A DNA stretch of 64,000 nucleotides. Source: Paracyclopina nana. Lineage: Eukaryota; Arthropoda; Copepoda; Cyclopoida; Cyclopettidae. The notes below the pieces were generated by a model, which was not told the origin of the DNA, ran no database searches, and saw nothing but the letters and a program-made list of their open reading frames with translations. The stretch spans positions 11,532,001 to 11,596,000 of the forward strand of contig JAGUCH010000001.1 of NCBI GenBank assembly GCA_019096065.1, written 5' to 3'. This document shows, piece by piece, positions 2,603-30,815 of the stretch. Within the stretch, counting starts at the first letter, position 1, and each line of letters opens with the position of its first letter. The position numbers and the translations under genes were made by a program.

Positions 2603-5600
2603 CTGCAAGTAAGTGTAAAAAATTGCAACCTCAACATTGAACAATCAACAGTCTTGAAAGGGTAATTTATGTAGATTCGTGTGCCTATGGTCGAATTCAG
2701 CAAAACTTTCTCACAGTCTTTGTACTATGTTGTTTACAAATGAAGCTACGCTTGTGTTTTACTTAAAGTCTTAGTAATAGGTTGATTATGCTGTTTTGAA
2801 TTATGATATTTTTGTCACTGAGTATCTGCATAAGATAGCTTCTATTTTAATTATTTGCTTTTGCAAGGTTCCAATGTCTGTTAAAAGAATAGTTCAGCGA
2901 TACCATGCTTGAAACAAAAGCTCCACAACAAAGAGAAAGATCAATGCAAAAACGGCTCGCTTTTGGCACACAGTCTGGCAAAGATTAAAAAACCAAATTC
3001 ATAAGCAGAGCCAAGTTGCCAAAATAGTCTGGCATTCGAGAAAAGAAAAGAGTTAAGTAAGGCCTTTTGCCGAAGGCTTGTGTGCTCATTGCTCAACTTT
3101 TTCCTTGCGGGACTGAGCATGACTATAGTAAAAATTGAAGCAGTAACTTTTTTGCAAAATTCTGCACAGCAAGGCATTCAATTATACTATCTGCCAAGAT
3201 GAGGGCAAAAAGCTAAGGCTTTGACAGCTTAGGAAATGAGATTTGTTGGGCTTTATAACCCACAAGAGCTAAGAGCAGACCATGAAATACCTGTTTTTCT
3301 GCTGCTATGTCTTCAGAGAAAAAAGTCACTTTGCTTCGTTTAAGATGATTGATCGGAAATGGGGGCAAGAAAAAGGGCCTTTTCAAGCGTTGCAAGACCC
3401 TCGAAGGGATCACAAGTGTTTCCCATTTTCCTCAATTTCTTTTTATTTTAGAATTAGCTTCTTCCAAATGATTTATCGTACTTCCATCAATTGAGCCCAA
3501 AAAGGTAACTACTATTTCATGTTGGCTAAACCACGCAGTCTTTAGGAGCCAGTAATAAGTTAGCGAAAACGGGAATGTTGTCAAGACTTATGAAATGTTG
3601 TCATTCGTTTCTTATCTGTTGTCATGTTTGGCCGAAAGGCCGATTCCATCAAAGCGAGACATTTGGGAGCCAATATGAATATGATGCTATTTTTACAAAA
3701 GTATTTATGGTCAAATTTGAAATAGAGGCATTAGTTGGTTGCTGCCATCAATGGTTTTTTTTAACAATTAGTAAGGAAAACTTCACTTTTAAGGTGAAGG
3801 AGCTAGATTTAATATTCTCAATTGGTGCGAAGGTTTGAATAAAATGCATGAAAGTGGAGGAAATTGATTTCACCTCGTGATGTAGGCTGCAATTGTTGTC
3901 GAATATATTGCTTTTTGAATATACTGTATGCAATTTCTCTTTCTTGGACCAATGTCAAGTTTGCGTGCTGCAAACTATTAAGAGTTTTGTTGCAAGATTC
4001 CTCATTCAGAGCCGGAAAAATTGCACTTTCAGGCCCTTTCTAGGGCTCCACACTAAAGTACTTAACTTTCTTTGTTATCCATATGATAAAGAATGCAATA
4101 TTAGAAAGCATGCAGAATTCTTTGCCTCGCACAAGCACTACTTGGTGCGGGTGTAAACAATACGGTTTTTTTACAGTTGCTTTGCTTTACTTTCTAGTCG
4201 TAAACGGACAATTTTGAGCTTTCACCGAGGGAATTTTTATGCAAATGGAGAAGGTGGTTTGCAGTTGTAGTTGCTGTTGTTTGCGTGTGAAATTGCATTA
4301 CAGGCTCTTCCAAAAAAGTGATTTACAGCCAAGGATACCGACCAGACAGACAAATTGTTGTTGCTACACTCTACTGTCAACATCGCTTTAGGCCCAAAGT
4401 GAATTGATGTTGGCTTTAGTTTATTTGCATGGCCAACAATGCGGCCATAATGATGAGGCTTCAGAAAAGCCAAACTTAGGTATTTTTGCCTCTGGCATGA
4501 GAGTGATCTGCTTTTGCTTTGCTTGGCTGTTAGACTTTTCTGATTGCATTAATGGGATTTTATGGTCTAAAGGTCATGATGCATGGCGCAAGCAAATGTC
4601 AGTCCATCAAAGCACATAAGAATCCTCCCTAGTTGGCAATTGGCTGATAACAACAACTGAGGCCACGAGAGAAACCAAAGCCAATTACATGACGGCATTA
4701 TTCATCCAGAACTAGCATCAACTTTGTTTTTGGCTCAAGCTCTAGTTCTTCGTTTTCCTTCGCAGAATTGAGGCACTTATATAGCAGTGAGGTCAAGATG
4801 TTGCCACCCTTAATATTCTTGCCATGCTCTGTCCCATGAGACAAGACTCATTGGGTACACTTGGACTTGGACTGATAGTGGTATCGAGTCCAAGCTGAAA
4901 AGTGTCAAGTCAAGCTCCGTTGCATCTCCAAGGTCATGAAGCCTTGTGTGTCAACAATTTGCCACACTAAACAAAAAACAAGGCCAGAATGCTGCCACTT
5001 TTCTATTAAAGCTCCTGCCTATATATTTAGCAACCAATGGATGTATTCAATTTTTCAAAGGTTAACGAAGGGCACGATTTTTGCACTTTGTTTGGACTTG
5101 TGCAACAGCAAAGGCATTCCCCTTTTTTCAGGCTTGTCAACACGAGCTAGCTTTAGAGTCACCAAGGAAGATTAATTTTCTGGGGGAAAGCATCGTGGAC
5201 AATTGCCAGTTGTTGGCTTGAAAAACGAGAATGTAATGTTAAATTTGGGCCCCAGGAAAAGGGGAAGGATAATTCAATGCCAGGCTTTCTTTGCACTGGC
5301 AGACTCGATAACATGTAATTTGTAGAAGCATTACGAGCCTGCTGACTTTTCTTGTGGCAAATTCATATTTGATAGCAGTGTGACTATTTGGCAAAGGCTT
5401 TCATGAAAAATTGCTTTTCACATTGCTGCTACAATGTGGTGCTTGTAACATGCTATGACTACAGTTTATAATGGCACAACCATTCATTTTACTTATAGCT
5501 TTTAATTGAGACAAATATGCTCGATACTGCGCATAGTGCTCAGGTCATGAAAGGACTGCTGGTTTCTTAGAACTATTGCTCTTTTAGGGCAAAACGGGTT

Positions 5601-6353
5601 AATTGTGTCAAATCATAGATAGACCACGAAAAGTGCGACACATGAACTGAGCCAAAGTGTTGAGTACGCACGAAGAATTGCAGATGGCAAAAACGTTTCC
5701 CTGCTACCATATCTATTGGTGCAAAAATAATGAGCTCGTAAAGCTTACGTTTTATCGACACTTTGTCTGCGCGCAATTTGCTTTCGCGAAAAAGCCGTAA
5801 GGTTTTGACAAAGAAAGAGATATCATAAAAAGCTTATGCACCTTTTGTGACGTTGACAAAATGGTTGATATCAATTTGAGGCCACACTTCAACCTTTTTA
5901 AGGTTTTCCTTTCGAACTGGCATTTGACATATTTCTCCGTAAAGATGACTTGGTAGTGCATTGTACACTAAAGCCAATTTTGTGTTGTAAAGAAAACTGT
6001 GCACAAAAATTGCCAAGAAATGGCTTCTTTTGTCCTTGGAACTGATTCAAAGTCTGATAGATGATGGGGCAGACGAAGTTTGACCAACAACAATGGCTAG
6101 CTCACATGCGGATTAGGGCTTCTTCAAGTGTATTATTCTGTTACCAGTTTCTGCCTTTCTCCTGCTGTCTCTACTGTCGTCGTTGGTTGTGGTGGGGAGT
6201 TGCATTTTCGGATTATTGCAGTAAACAACCTTCAACATCTTGAAGAAACTGCAGTGGCAAATGTTACTCTGCTTAACAGGCCTCAATTTCATGCCATATG
6301 CGCAGAAGAAGCAAACTACAGATTTTTCGCGTTATTCTGCATTCCACCTCCTA
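2603..6353. other. No supported gene
   Basis: AT-rich sequence with only short scattered open frames. The signal-peptide exon of the dpr-like gene may lie here or further right, but no convincing one was seen. No repeat family stands out. Confidence 0.5.
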
Positions 6354-6498
6354 GGCTTAGTCTCTTCTGGAGATTTCATAGTGACCAAGCCACGGTCATT
6401 ATCGATTCTTATGTAGTTCCATCACAACCTACTCAGTACATAAGAAACGATAATGACCGTGGCTTGGTCACTATGAAATCTCCAGAAGAGACTAAGCC
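6354..6498. mobile_element. Palindromic MITE family A, copy 1
   Basis: A 145-bp near-complete inverted repeat that begins GGCTTAGTCTCTTCTGGAG and ends with its reverse complement, with a loop of about 35 bp. It is flanked by the 3-bp direct repeat CTA (6351-6353 and 6499-6501). A second copy lies at 19554-19698. No coding capacity. Confidence 0.85.
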
Positions 6499-8773
6499 CT
6501 AGATTTGCCTAAACAGCCCTAGAATAAGCTCAGATGGGATGCAATGAACTTCATGTGTATCAGTGCATCTTGTCAATTTGGCTGAGTCATTTCCCTTGTG
6601 AGTTAGCATTGTACTACCAATCACTCTGCATTTCTCACCCGAAGTTGTGCACAATGGGATCGACGTGACCAGGAGCCAAAAGAGCGCGGTTCTCCTATCT
6701 TGATGCCAATCCATTCTTGGTAGCCTTCTGAGTAAGATCTGAAAAAAAGCAAACATGAGATTACTACCCATTTTAGGGACTCTTATTAGACCTAGTAGAA
6801 ACTTTGCTGCTTCATTTGGATGATTGCTCCCTCTCGCTGTAAAATAAAGCTGCTTACTGTCAAAGTATTATGTGAGAGTGAGAGAGAGCAAGAAGGGAAA
6901 ATGAAGGTTCTCATGTTCAGATTTGTCCAGAACTGGCAGGAAAGCAGCAAACTTTTGATAAAATTTCTTTTCTGCCGCACACTCACATAGCAAGCATACT
7001 GAGGAATGTCAATGTATGTAGAAGATCAGTTTGAAGTTTTCATTATGACTAGCCCTCCTAAAAACACCCCTATGCAAATTCTGCATTGAGCATCAAAGCA
7101 AGCTAAATTGAACTAGGCTTGTCATCCATAAAATTACAAAACCAATGATGAAAAATACTACTACAGAAAAATGTGAGCCTAACTTAGCTCAACTTTGCAT
7201 TGAAGCTATCATGTCTGACAGGGCACAAGGTAATCTGTCTATGTGGAAAGTTTTAACCATGAAAACCAGCTGCTGCTCTCGCCGAAGTTAAGCAGAGTAT
7301 GTCGTGAAAACCTGAATGATGATGTCCCATGGCTTTCTAAAACTTGAAATGTGCCTATTGTGGCTGAAGGAAACTTATCCTTGAATAGTTTTGGGGCTTT
7401 GGAGGAAAAACGCAGCGGGATTTTGAGCTTATTATTATCATAGTTATCCAGATGCATAACTGGCAAATGCCAAATTCACTTTCCAACTCTCGTAGCTGGA
7501 AGCAATTTTGCTCTGCTTCTTCTTGAGCTCTTTCTCTATAGGCTAATGCACTTCAAAATGCATTTTTCAAGTACTCTTCAAAGCTCAAGATCTGATCATT
7601 CATTAAAAGCTCAATGCTATATTATACATCACTAGTTTGCTCAATTTTGCAAAAATATTTCTGAAAGTGAAAATACTACAGTTTTGACAAAAATGTATAT
7701 TTTGCTAGAGCTGCTGATTTTTCCCTGTGACAAATTAGCCTCTATATATTTGTTAAAACGAGACATATCTACTGCTCTCAGTTCACCTTATTGCTCTGTG
7801 ATAATACAGGATCAGAAAAACTGGCCAGAAGAACAGAGAGAAAAAATCTGGCTTCTGTAGATAAGCTATCCATTATCATTGTGACACTTCTGGACACGCC
7901 CCTGTATTTTGTTTACCAACAATAATACAACAACGTCCGACCACGTGGCCATCTAATCTCCTGGGGATTTCTGCAAATTGTTTGCCTTTTTTGCATAAGA
8001 GCTGCTGATACTGCTACATCTGGTGTGGAAAGCTTCTTGCTTTGTGGACGCAATATTGGTTAAGAAAAAGGTAGAAATGGCAACAGTTGCTCATGAATGC
8101 ACAAGCGGCCTCCTTATTTACACATTTATGCTAAACTGGCACACAAAGCCAAACTCGGATTAGGTTGAGCCAGCAATAAAAAAGATTCCAAAGAGCTTTG
8201 ATGCTCAGTTAACATTTAAGAATTAAAAGCAAAATGTAATTGCGTTTGAAACTCATGTTTTGAAGCCATATTTTAAAGTGCTATAGGCTTCTATGGCGTA
8301 ATTTTTTAGCCAAAACTTCATCTCCCTAGTGAACATTCTGAAACAGTGTGATATTGCTTGAATATGAACCTAACAAAACATAAGAGGAAGTGTTTACGCT
8401 ACAATATTTGGTTTTAGAAAGCAAACATGGCTGCTCCTGTACTACTATGTTCAAATGCCTTAATCATTTGAGACCCTCCTCATTTCGCACAAAATAATAG
8501 TTCCCTACCCCCTCAGCAAAAGTTAGGCCCCAAGAAAAATCCCTGAGAGGTCGGGAAAGACTGGTTGACTGCCGTAAGCAAAAAATATTACATACTTTTT
8601 TAGTTTTATAGCGAATTGGCCGGGTGACACTTTTTTTCCCGGGAAAAAATAATCCCTGGTGCGAGAAAAAGCTGAGAAGCATTTGGAAATTGAAAGCCTA
8701 CCTGGGATTTGCGGTTACTAGTAGAGAAAAAACCTTTCAAAGAGGAGAAAAATTGCCTTAAGATCATCACTAA
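6499..8773. other. No supported gene
   Basis: AT-rich sequence with a short GA-rich tract near 6870-6890. No open frame has splice sites or recognisable residues. Confidence 0.5.
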
Positions 8774-9185
8774 GGCCTGGATCAGCTGGTTATTTCACCG
8801 CAATTTTGAGCGCCGTAATTGCAATGCAATTGTCAACATAACAGCGATCAGCTGGTAATTGTAATCCAATTTTTGCTATGTGCAAAAATTACTTCTTTAG
8901 TGGGTTTAAAGTAAAACTTTAAGACCAAAATTCAAAAATGGGATCATTAGAGCTTACGCTATCAAAAACAGCTTCTGTTTTGACAAATAAGGCCAAAAAT
9001 TAGGCCAACTTAAATTGCAAAGGTTTGGTTGACTTTACTCTTAAAGTTCCGCCGCAGCTTTGCTCGACGAAATTGCGCTGCAATTATCTGTAGTAGCTGA
9101 TCCACTTAAATTGCAACGCAATTACAAACAGCAGCTGAAATTATAACCGAAATTGCGCTGCAATCAGGACCAGCTGATCCAGGCC
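8774..9185. mobile_element. MITE family C, copy 1 (412 bp)
   Basis: The terminal inverted repeats start GGCCTGGATCAGCTGG. The interior has further inverted AATTGC-rich blocks. TAA directly precedes and follows the element, as a 3-bp target duplication. An element of the same 412-bp length with nearly the same sequence is at 17137-17548. TAA duplications fit PIF/Harbinger-type insertion, but no transposase is encoded. Confidence 0.85.
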
Positions 9186-9879
9186 TAAATGTATCTTCTG
9201 TTAAGTTATTCTACTGAACTATTTGAGATTAAGCTACACATTAAGATGTCAATTGCAGATTCGCTATGCCTGCATACAATTTTTTCCTTGCCTTTTAACA
9301 TGATCGGAGCTTCAAGCTGATTTTGACAATTTTAGCCGTGTTAGTGTGGCCTTTGGGCTTGATGTACTGGTTGTTGTTTTTTTGGCCTGACGTTTGGTTC
9401 TTTTTGGGGCTTGGCTTGTGATGTCTGATATCCAACTTTTTTCATTGTGTCTATTGTCCTAAGTGGTAAAAACTAGTCCAATGAATGACTTCACTAAGAA
9501 AGCAACCCACCAAAACTTAATGTAGAAATAAATAAGGAAAAGAGTGTCATTTCTTTTTTGCGAAAAACAAGGAGAGTGAGAGTTCCTCTTTTTCTTTTTT
9601 CTGGAAAGCACATTTTCCCTTTTTTGCAAAAGGAATCACAATTGGACTTGATTTGGGCTAATGATCAAAGGAAGTCTTGAGCTTGCTACTCTTTACTTCA
9701 TTTTACCACCATTTACTGCTTGATGTCATCAAGAAATTCTAAGAACCACTTTGAAATCAGCCGATGTTCATGATCATCTTTATCATCGACATGATTGAAT
9801 TTCTAGGCCAAATCAATGGATATTAAAAAAGAACGGGCCGATTTTACGCCATAAGTAATTCTGCATTTTGTTTCACTTA
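9186..9879. other. No supported gene
   Basis: Low-complexity T-rich and AT-rich sequence. No feature recognised. Confidence 0.5.
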
Positions 9880-10024
9880 GGCTCATTATCTTCCGCGTCT
9901 TTGATCGTGACTTGGTTACGGTTGTTATCGCTTCTTATTTACTGACATCGCAACCTCGTCAGTAAATAAGAAACGATAACAACCGCAACCATGCTATGAT
10001 CAAACACGCGGAAGATAATGAGCC
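9880..10024. mobile_element. Palindromic MITE family B, copy 1
   Basis: A 145-bp inverted repeat starting GGCTCATTATCTTC and ending with its reverse complement. The central stem is built on TTCTTATTTACTGAC. It sits 3 bp from a second copy in the same orientation. Confidence 0.82.
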
Positions 10025-10027
10025 TTT

Positions 10028-10164
10028 GGCTGATTATCTTCTGTGTCGTTGATCGTTGCGGTTGTGATCAGTTCTTATTTACTGACATCGCAACCTCGTC
10101 AGTGAATAAGAACCGATAACAACCGTAACCATACCACGATCAAAGACACAGAAGATAATGAGCC
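10028..10164. mobile_element. Palindromic MITE family B, copy 2
   Basis: A 137-bp inverted repeat with the same loop (GACATCGCAACCTCGTC) as the copy ending at 10024. TTT lies on both sides (10025-10027 and 10165-10167). The two copies differ at many stem positions, so they are not a recent simple duplication. Confidence 0.8.
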
Positions 10165-10255
10165 TTTTAGTCTCCTATTTCTGGCTGCTTCATGAACGAT
10201 TTTTACTGGCTGGCATTGTGGCAACTAACTACGCTTTTCAGCACTGAACTCAACG

Positions 10256-22107: not shown

Positions 22108-22261
22108 AGCCCGGTTCCAACAAGGAAAATCAGCATAGTCAGGAGACGTAACTTGACTTTTTAGCATAGTCAGGTCACAGCTAGCTCGCGCGCTCAGCTC
22201 AACCTGACTTAACTGGTTTACCGTACTATACTATGCTGATATCCCGTGTTGGAACCGGGCT
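22108..22261. mobile_element. MITE family D copy
   Basis: A 154-bp element with AGCCCGGTTCCAACA ends, flanked by AAT on both sides (22105-22107 and 22262-22264). It is very similar to the copies at 12222 and 22295. Confidence 0.88.
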
Positions 22262-22294
22262 AATATCTATCATATGCCTTTCAGTTTCACTATC

Positions 22295-22448
22295 AGCCCG
22301 GTTCCAACAAGGGAAATCAGCATAGTCAGGAGACGTAACTTGACTTTTTAGCATAGTCAGGTCACAGCTAGCTCGCGCGCTCAGCTCAACCTGACTTGAC
22401 TGGTTTACCGTACTATACTATGCTGATATCCCGTGTTGGAACTGGGCT
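22295..22448. mobile_element. MITE family D copy
   Basis: A 154-bp element flanked by ATC on both sides (22292-22294 and 22449-22451). It lies 33 bp from another copy in the same orientation. The two have different target duplications, so they are separate insertions. Confidence 0.88.
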
Positions 22449-22486
22449 ATCGATTTACAGTTTATTATAGATTGCTGTTTTCTTAG

Positions 22487-29696: not shown

Positions 29697-29715
29697 CTTT
29701 GTATCCGCTGTGTCT

Positions 29716-29922
29716 AAACACTGCTTATGACTGCTCACACTGCTTATGACTGCTTATGACTGCTTATGACAGCTTACGAGTGCTTATGACTGCTTATGAC
29801 TGCTTATGACTGCTCACACTGCTTGTAGTTGCTCACACTGCTTATGACTGCTCACACTGCTTATGTCTGCTCACACTGTACTGCTTATGGCTGACTGCTC
29901 ATGACTACTCATGACTACTAAT
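29716..29922. repeat. Left decamer array (ACTGCTTATG)
   Basis: Many imperfect copies of ACTGCTTATG, mixed with the variant units CTGCTCACA and CTACTCATGA. It is more degenerate than the right array. Confidence 0.85.
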
Positions 29923-30570
29923 GAAAGACAACAACAAAAAGTCTACAACAAAATCATTTTGCTCAATTTTGTTTATTTTAGGGGAAATTGGACTTAATTG
30001 ATCCGGTGTACTTTGTAAGTGGACTATATGCATTGCGGCAATTTTAAAAGGCACAGTCAATCTCTTCAATACAGGAAGGCTTTCTTAAATTAAATTATTT
30101 GGGTGTGTTGCGCTGAAAGGTCACTTTGTGATATTTAACATGTTTTGCATCAATTATGCTTAGAGAAACTTTCCTGTTATATTGCATTTTTGTGTCCTAT
30201 ATTGAGCTTAGTGGATTCATAATTTTTCATTAGTGACATTTTAAAGGCTGAACTCGATTTTGATTGCTACAATTCTCCTTTTAGAATCAAATCGAAATTT
30301 GGGAAGCAGTCATGATTGATCAGAAACTGAATGTGTGCAGCTATGCAGGGGGCTGCTCTGAAGAAGTAAATAAATGGACCTAACCAGCTGTAGCCCGGAT
30401 GCAATTTCAGGGCTACACCCCATATACATCTTGAAATTTAGATTTTTTATAATGAAAAATTTAATTATGCTGCTAATGTGAGTGATTCAAATTGTATGCA
30501 ATTATATTTCTGCTCTTATGAGCCATATAATCAGTCACAGTTTGTTATAAGCAGCCACGAGTTAGATTTT

Positions 30571-30795
30571 CATAAGTTTAGTCATAAGCAGTCATGAGCA
30601 ATAAATGAGCAGTCATGAGTAGCCATAAGCAGTCATAACCAGTCATAAACAGTCATAAGCAGTCATAAGCAGTCATAAGCAGTCATAAGCAGTCACAAGC
30701 AGTCATAAGCAGTCATAAGCAGTCATAAGCAGTCATAAGCAGTCATAAGCAGTCATAAGCAGTCATAAGCAGTGAGAGCAGTCATAAGCAGTGTT
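30571..30795. repeat. Right decamer array (AGTCATAAGC)
   Basis: Sixteen units lie in exact 10-bp register between 30611 and 30770, mostly identical AGTCATAAGC, with degenerate units outside. It is the reverse complement of the left array. Confidence 0.9.
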
Positions 30796-30815
30796 TAGAC
30801 ACGGCCCTTTGTATC

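Follow-up and report, generated by a model that had tools for sequence, protein, structure and literature searches.

In the window, i.e. the stretch of 64,000 nucleotides of the Paracyclopina nana genome analysed here, a segment of 1,101 bp (29706-30806) lies between exact copies of the nonamer CTTTGTATC and begins and ends in opposed arrays of a short tandem unit, raising the question of whether it is a mobile element, which transposase would act on it and what its arrays contribute. The analysis indicates that this segment, designated F1a as the reference copy of family F1, is very probably a non-autonomous DNA transposon of the foldback type, which most likely belongs to the Mutator (MULE) superfamily and is mobilised by a cut-and-paste mechanism through a transposase provided in trans. 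Its features, its copies and the elements with which it was compared are listed in Table 1.

Table 1. Coordinates of the element in the window, of F1 and F2 copies and of MULE-related elements (positions without a contig or locus are those of the window)
Feature	Coordinates	Strand	Length	Basis or remark
Left target-site duplication CTTTGTATC	29697..29705	.		Sequence, window motif search, duplications compared across copies
Left tip CGCTGTGTCTAAACAC	29706..29721	+		Outer CGCT, mark of the left end in F1 and F2
Left array, (A)CTGCTTATG units, 9/10-bp spacing	29720..29924	+		TRF 29720-29871 and 29892-29924
Middle region	29925..30579	.		No ORF ≥110 aa stop to stop; near-identical in two other copies
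Segment resembling (70-73%) the units of a 215-bp tandem array	30015..30157	+		DNA search; array at L064:1742-2413, C1
Short-repeat-like stretch	30343..30408	+	~65 bp	DNA search; pieces at 74-93%
Right array, AGTCATAAGC on + strand	30580..30792	-		TRF and sequence; 16 exact-register units at 30610-30769
Right tip, read inward GGCCGTGTCTAAACAC	30791..30806	-		Outer GGCC, mark of the right end in F1 and F2
Right target-site duplication CTTTGTATC	30807..30815	.		Sequence, window motif search, duplications compared across copies
F1a	29706-30806		1,101 bp	Reference copy
F1b	C1:2810758-2811872			98% to window copy; DNA search
F1c	C3:7673489-7674589			96% to window copy; DNA search
F2 copy	C1:6554086-6555313		1,228 bp	
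F2 copy	C8:4095680-4097036		1,357 bp	
F2c	C1:12385623-12387422		1,800 bp	Nested element inside
Truncated F2 end	near C2:8403741			Outer bases GGCT
L051	G000:C6:2027300-2037299, 3770-9518		~5.7 kb	537-codon frame, MULE and RING; flanked on either side by exact GATATACCT
L052	C2		1,644 bp	415-codon MULE frame; duplication GCTGCTAG, 8 bp; 15-bp period
L074, second copy of L052				Duplication AAAATTTC, 8 bp
L061, inverted-repeat element	~4463-5126, G000:C2			15-bp units (TRF); tip GGTATATC as in L052; 8-bp duplication TTTAAAAG by eye

The nonamer occurs twice in the 64 kb, at the two flanks of the element (shuffle mean 0.58), and, as 10 of 100 shuffles also reached two matches, the pair taken alone is weak evidence; its weight comes from the fact that it abuts both tips exactly and that other copies show the same arrangement. 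The 9-bp flanking repeat claimed in the preliminary description was borne out to the base. At up to one mismatch, GTGTCTAAACAC was detected in the window only at 29710 (+) and 30791 (-), two matches being reached in 2 of 100 shuffles, while the inner 12 bp of either tip were found in the window only at the element's own ends. The outer ends had likewise been described as inverted, which holds for the tips but not for their outermost four bases, as these read CGCT on the left and GGCC on the right (read inward) and are not inverted copies of each other. The end sequences of F1 and F2 are represented by CGCTGTGTCTAAA and GGCCGTGWCTAAA. The inverted arms (29707-29814 and 30698-30805) comprise 108 nt at 95% identity, and a single strand of the element was predicted to fold tip to tip, a prediction made without a shuffled control at such length.

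Each tip runs directly into an array of a 10-bp unit, which reads ACTGCTTATG inward at either end. The right array was resolved by TRF into 21.3 copies at 88%, including 16 consecutive units in exact 10-bp register, whereas the left array displays a mixture of 9- and 10-bp spacings, TRF returning a 10-bp unit with an alternative reading of 19 bp (10+9) for its longer segment. The opposed decamer arrays reported previously were therefore recovered at both ends, with the 16 strict-register units on the right, although the left array departs from a strict decamer register.

No open frame of at least 110 codons (stop to stop) overlaps the element, and F1 is considered non-autonomous for this reason. 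Sequences resembling the short-repeat-like stretch of the middle region were found singly dispersed and, at some loci, in tandem with spacings such as 119-150 bp. An RNA-family search of eight repeat loci (seven of this short internal repeat and one of the 215-bp array) returned no match at gathering score; three weak matches to microRNA precursors were far under their gathering scores. Elsewhere, the window carries tandem duplications at 9915-10167 and 22108-22449, with periods of 140 and 187 bp, and a CLCA-domain gene.

The genome from which the window derives (92 Mb in 10 contigs) was searched for the further copies anticipated in the preliminary description. The search revealed two more F1 copies and a sister family, F2, which possesses the same type of tips and arrays and whose middle regions differ from that of F1 (best match 21 bp, E 3e-4). 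Exact 9-bp duplications, all different from one another, flank five of the six two-armed copies, i.e. CTTTGTATC and CAATTTCCG for two of the three F1 copies and CTTAATGGG, CAGGGTAGG and TTTTGTGAG for F2; the chance of such a duplication is ~4e-6 per copy. Furthermore, the unequal tips recur throughout: each of the 11 ends left intact in the six copies carries either CGCT or GGCC, according to its side. Outside the arrays, F1a differs from F1b by no substitution and from F1c by one (the broken tip of F1b being left out), while the presence of a further mismatch within an array depends on gap placement. The F2 copies exhibit three to four substitutions per 1,165-1,195 aligned bases, arrays that differ by 10 and 20 bp and by a block of 142-152 bp, and middle-region gaps of 16 and 17 bp, which are not multiples of ten, as well as a 609-bp gap that corresponds to a nested element. 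When the two window flanks (300 + 300 bases) were joined and compared with the genome, their own place alone was matched, as two pieces, and no empty site was seen. Collectively, the F1 copies, F2 and the five exact duplications support a transposon with array-built terminal inverted repeats (TIRs) and a 9-bp target-site duplication.

A degenerate pattern of three array units, allowing up to two mismatches, produced 92 matches in the whole genome (reversed control, 0), all of which fall within the three F1 copies, the three F2 copies and the truncated F2 place. The earlier view that the array is part of the element rather than a free satellite is upheld by this confinement to seven places. These data also bear on the alternative that F1 is not mobile and that its inverted tandem-repeat structure arose locally when a satellite expanded and underwent inversion: the arrays are indeed tandem repeats and the middle region shares stretches with tandem repeats elsewhere, but the absence of the array pattern outside F1/F2 elements at this stringency, the near-identical copies at three sites and the differing duplications of five of the six copies make such an origin extremely improbable.

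Comparison of array lengths between copies, as proposed at the outset, revealed changes by whole units among otherwise nearly identical copies: F1a is 20 bp shorter in its right array, and F1c in its left array, than the remaining F1 copies, a difference that is placed, depending on the aligner, as a single 20-bp gap or as two gaps of 10 bp. A second property of the arrays concerns the base that follows the TGC core of the unit. This base is T at each of the 36 cores of F1a, of which the left arm has 17 and the right arm 19, and all 38 cores of F2a (26 left, 12 right) have A; for the TGC-cored units of all six two-armed copies, the counts are 110/110 for T in F1 and 123/123 for A in F2. Since the copies of one family do not count as independent observations, TGCT/TGCA represents one fixed between-family difference, present on both arms, and it fits either homogenisation between the arms or independent re-expansion from the tip units. 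Over the outer ~45 bp, 37-39 of 46 positions agree between F1 and F2, compared with 45/46 between the arms of F1a and 42/46 between those of F2a, and a core spacing of 10-9-10 is common to both families. To judge from this conservation, the outer ~45-bp tip would be the likeliest site of transposase action.

The one two-armed copy without a clean pair of duplications is F1b, where the right end has the usual form and is flanked by CTTATGAAA. At its left end (L056 ~1735-1770), the expected tip is absent and the sequence reads CTTATTTCATAAG, TCTAAACAG and then the remaining TCTAAACAC, where TTTCATAAG reverse-complements the 9-mer on the right and TCTAAACA occurs twice in succession. The junction looks like a break that was mended by a short templated insertion in inverted orientation.

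The element nested in F2c, designated F3, is an inverted-repeat element of 0.6 kb (L060:2556-3156, ~C1:12386555-12387155) with tips GGGAGAAG and GGGTGCCG and a ~22-bp period on one arm. Its site is empty in F2a and F2b, where the duplicated bases are present in one copy. F3 was found at no fewer than 37 other genome places, and seven of the nine examined have exact 8-9-bp duplications. Its candidacy as a further 9-bp family was rejected, since three of these seven read as 8 bp only and the other four as either 9 or 8 bp.

The preliminary description had proposed looking for an autonomous partner with a MULE transposase. The MULE transposase domain (PF10551) was identified at five places in the genome, all above the Pfam cut-off, and none of these is tipped like F1/F2. 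In total, a 20-mer tip, the array pattern, a 13-base tip and the ends of the five MULE places were used in the search, and no autonomous element with F1/F2 tips was found by these means. The 20-mer, with up to three mismatches, gave 15 matches in the genome (reversed control, 2), of which five were exact (all F1), one was the left end of F1b, six were F2, one was the truncated F2 and two lacked arrays. The degenerate 13-base tip, searched exactly, gave 17 matches (reversed control, 11), comprising 10 ends of the six copies, one truncated end and six isolated matches without a nearby inverted mate.

Definable ends were recognised at two of the five MULE places, L051 and L052, where they are repetitive and inverted and are accompanied by 8- or 9-bp duplications. 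The ends of L051 have 54- and 63-bp periods; its boundary is uncertain, because its outer tips match poorly (7/14 bases) and because GGTATATC, in part the reverse complement of GATATACCT, also tips L052 and L061. L051 also encompasses additional short open frames, of which one resembles a GDSL hydrolase very weakly, in a match far under the cut-off. A Phantom-type autonomous member would be defined by FLYWCH together with a MULE transposase. Pfam reports no FLYWCH domain in the L051 and L052 proteins, while the start of the L051 protein is, by eye, what we take to be FLYWCH-like. Of the remaining places, L053 has a 10-mer pair whose flanks form no convincing TIR, and no end pair was seen when the ends of L054 and L055 were read. 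The tips of L052 matched 20 times genome-wide (reversed control, 0), forming pairs at seven places and remaining unpaired in six cases; as four of the seven pairs are only 0.6-0.9 kb apart, a transposase-bearing MULE and short derivatives coexist in this genome.

The target duplications of F1 and F2, 9 bp in five of the six copies, fall in the range of 8-11 bp that has been given for Mutator/MULE (PMC6446971). F1 and F2 also have the long TIRs of opposed short tandem repeats, with array lengths varying between arms and copies, that characterise the foldback class. That L052 and its second copy have duplications of 8 bp speaks weakly against L052 as the partner of F1, given that the MULE Muta1 is described as making duplications of either 8 or 9 bp (PMC5225508). 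Membership of F1 in Mutator/MULE, originally assigned from duplication length, is probable and has become likelier through its anatomy, the tandem-repeat-TIR MULEs of the same genome and the lack of any Merlin-type DDE match; it falls short of proof, because no transposase gene sharing F1/F2 tips was found, which leaves duplication length, anatomy and the accompanying MULEs as the basis of the assignment.

Two alternative sources of the transposase were considered. Merlin/IS1016-type elements make 8-9-bp duplications and P/Galileo-type elements 7-8 bp, the latter being shorter than the 9 bp of the five measurable F1/F2 copies and setting Galileo apart from F1. A search with DDE_Tnp_IS1595 (PF12762) gave no match in this genome and was positive in one of 14 control genomes, an archaeon, so that its sensitivity for animal Merlin elements is unproved. 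Foldback structure is known to occur with different transposase classes (PMC3169594, PMC4079207), and yet, on these results, a foldback element of the Merlin/IS1016 or P/Galileo type is very unlikely. A partner in Rehavkus, a sister group of MULEs, or in another DDE group that duplicates 9 bp, is somewhat unlikely. Rehavkus has a PHD-finger transposase, 9-bp duplications like those of F1, TIRs of 26-400 bp and a minisatellite before the 3' TIR (PMC6446971), whereas F1 has arrays at both ends; PF10551 might miss a protein of this kind, consistent with the 0/5 MULE places with F1/F2 tips. Conversely, the closest anatomy among the published systems compared, that of Tm1, goes with a MULE/Phantom-type transposase (PMC3169594).

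The unit length of the arrays had suggested that they could place many binding sites on one face of the helix. Phasing was assessed as the vector strength of TGC cores in the left and right arrays of F1a and of F2b. In this order, the values were 0.08, 0.10, 0.08 and 0.35 at 10.5 bp per turn, 0.35, 0.65, 0.69 and 0.81 at 10.2, and 0.62, 0.93, 0.41 and 0.98 at 10.0. The idea thus fails at 10.5 bp per turn and, less clearly, at 10.2, these vector strengths allowing a one-face array only in overwound DNA (10.0-10.2 bp per turn), mainly for right arms. Period peaks above the largest of 100 shuffles were obtained for L051 (63 and 54 bp) and the left arm of L052 (15 bp), while the right arm of L052, both arms of L061, for which TRF does report 15 bp, and the left arm of F3 did not exceed the largest of their own 100 shuffles. 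Helix-face phasing was rejected as a general principle in view of the poor phase at 10.5 bp per turn and the other periods of other MULE families.

In the preferred reading of F1 as a MULE-type foldback element, a transposase acting in trans would cut at the conserved tip (~45 bp, core spacing 10-9-10) and paste the element elsewhere. The arrays behind the tip may multiply a short binding site and thereby raise specificity, by analogy with what has been proposed for Galileo, whose tandem repeats contain additional binding sites for its THAP-domain transposase (PMC3688188). Slippage or unequal repair may lengthen and shorten the arrays, and homogenisation may act between the two arms. A more elaborate form, in which the decamer arrays are working transposase-binding arrays, foldback repair keeps the arms equal, the block shifts with transposase specificity and length sets the activity of a copy, is rather unlikely. 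A tentative but sizeable possibility is that the arrays are passive products of slippage that contribute nothing to transposition, recognition being confined to the tip: array lengths vary among copies that evidently moved, the tip with its spacing is common to F1 and F2, and other MULE families of the genome have other periods. Against passive arrays stand the recurrence of repetitive inverted ends in those families, the same unit variant on both arms, and the Galileo binding sites.

The main interest of F1 is that its two arrays seem to change together, leaving array function open to testing. F1 and F2 constitute a compact test case: the two sister families have one tip type in common and are fixed, in either arm, for opposite variants of the unit, near-identical copies differ in array length, and MULEs with repetitive TIRs occur in the same 92-Mb genome.

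Among known systems, the Foldback elements of Drosophila (FB/FB-NOF) resemble F1 in their duplications of 9 bp and in their long TIRs, which are composed of short tandem repeats with 10-bp units among them, whereas FB arrays also include 20- and 31-bp units. Tetris of Drosophila virilis is, like F1, a non-autonomous foldback element with three complete copies and 8-9-bp duplications, assigned to Mutator by the same reasoning and with no autonomous partner found; its unit of ~220 bp seeded a satellite (PMC4079207), whereas the F1 decamer array was unseen outside the element. Galileo, a member of the P superfamily, shares long, internally repetitive TIRs with F1 and differs in its P-type transposase, and the source on its binding sites called a transposase-binding role for the tandem repeats of Foldback and Phantom TIRs untested in 2013 (PMC3688188). 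Since its architecture is that of Tm1, Tetris and Galileo, F1 is regarded as a new family of a known foldback kind, 'new' denoting that it was not recognised here. The near structural twin of F1, by description, is Tm1 of root-knot nematodes (Mutator/Foldback; PMC3169594). For Tm1 a transposase-bearing member is described, whereas none was found for F1/F2, and its units (13-15 bp versus 10 bp) and unequal tips (7 bp versus 4 bp) are longer. The two share several features: a Tm1 member of 1,080 bp has no obvious coding capacity, the Tm1 TIRs are built from short tandem units whose number varies and differ in length between arms and copies, the outer tips (A1/A2) are unequal, the duplications are mostly of 9 bp, and one Tm1 copy, like F1b, is without a tip and duplications.
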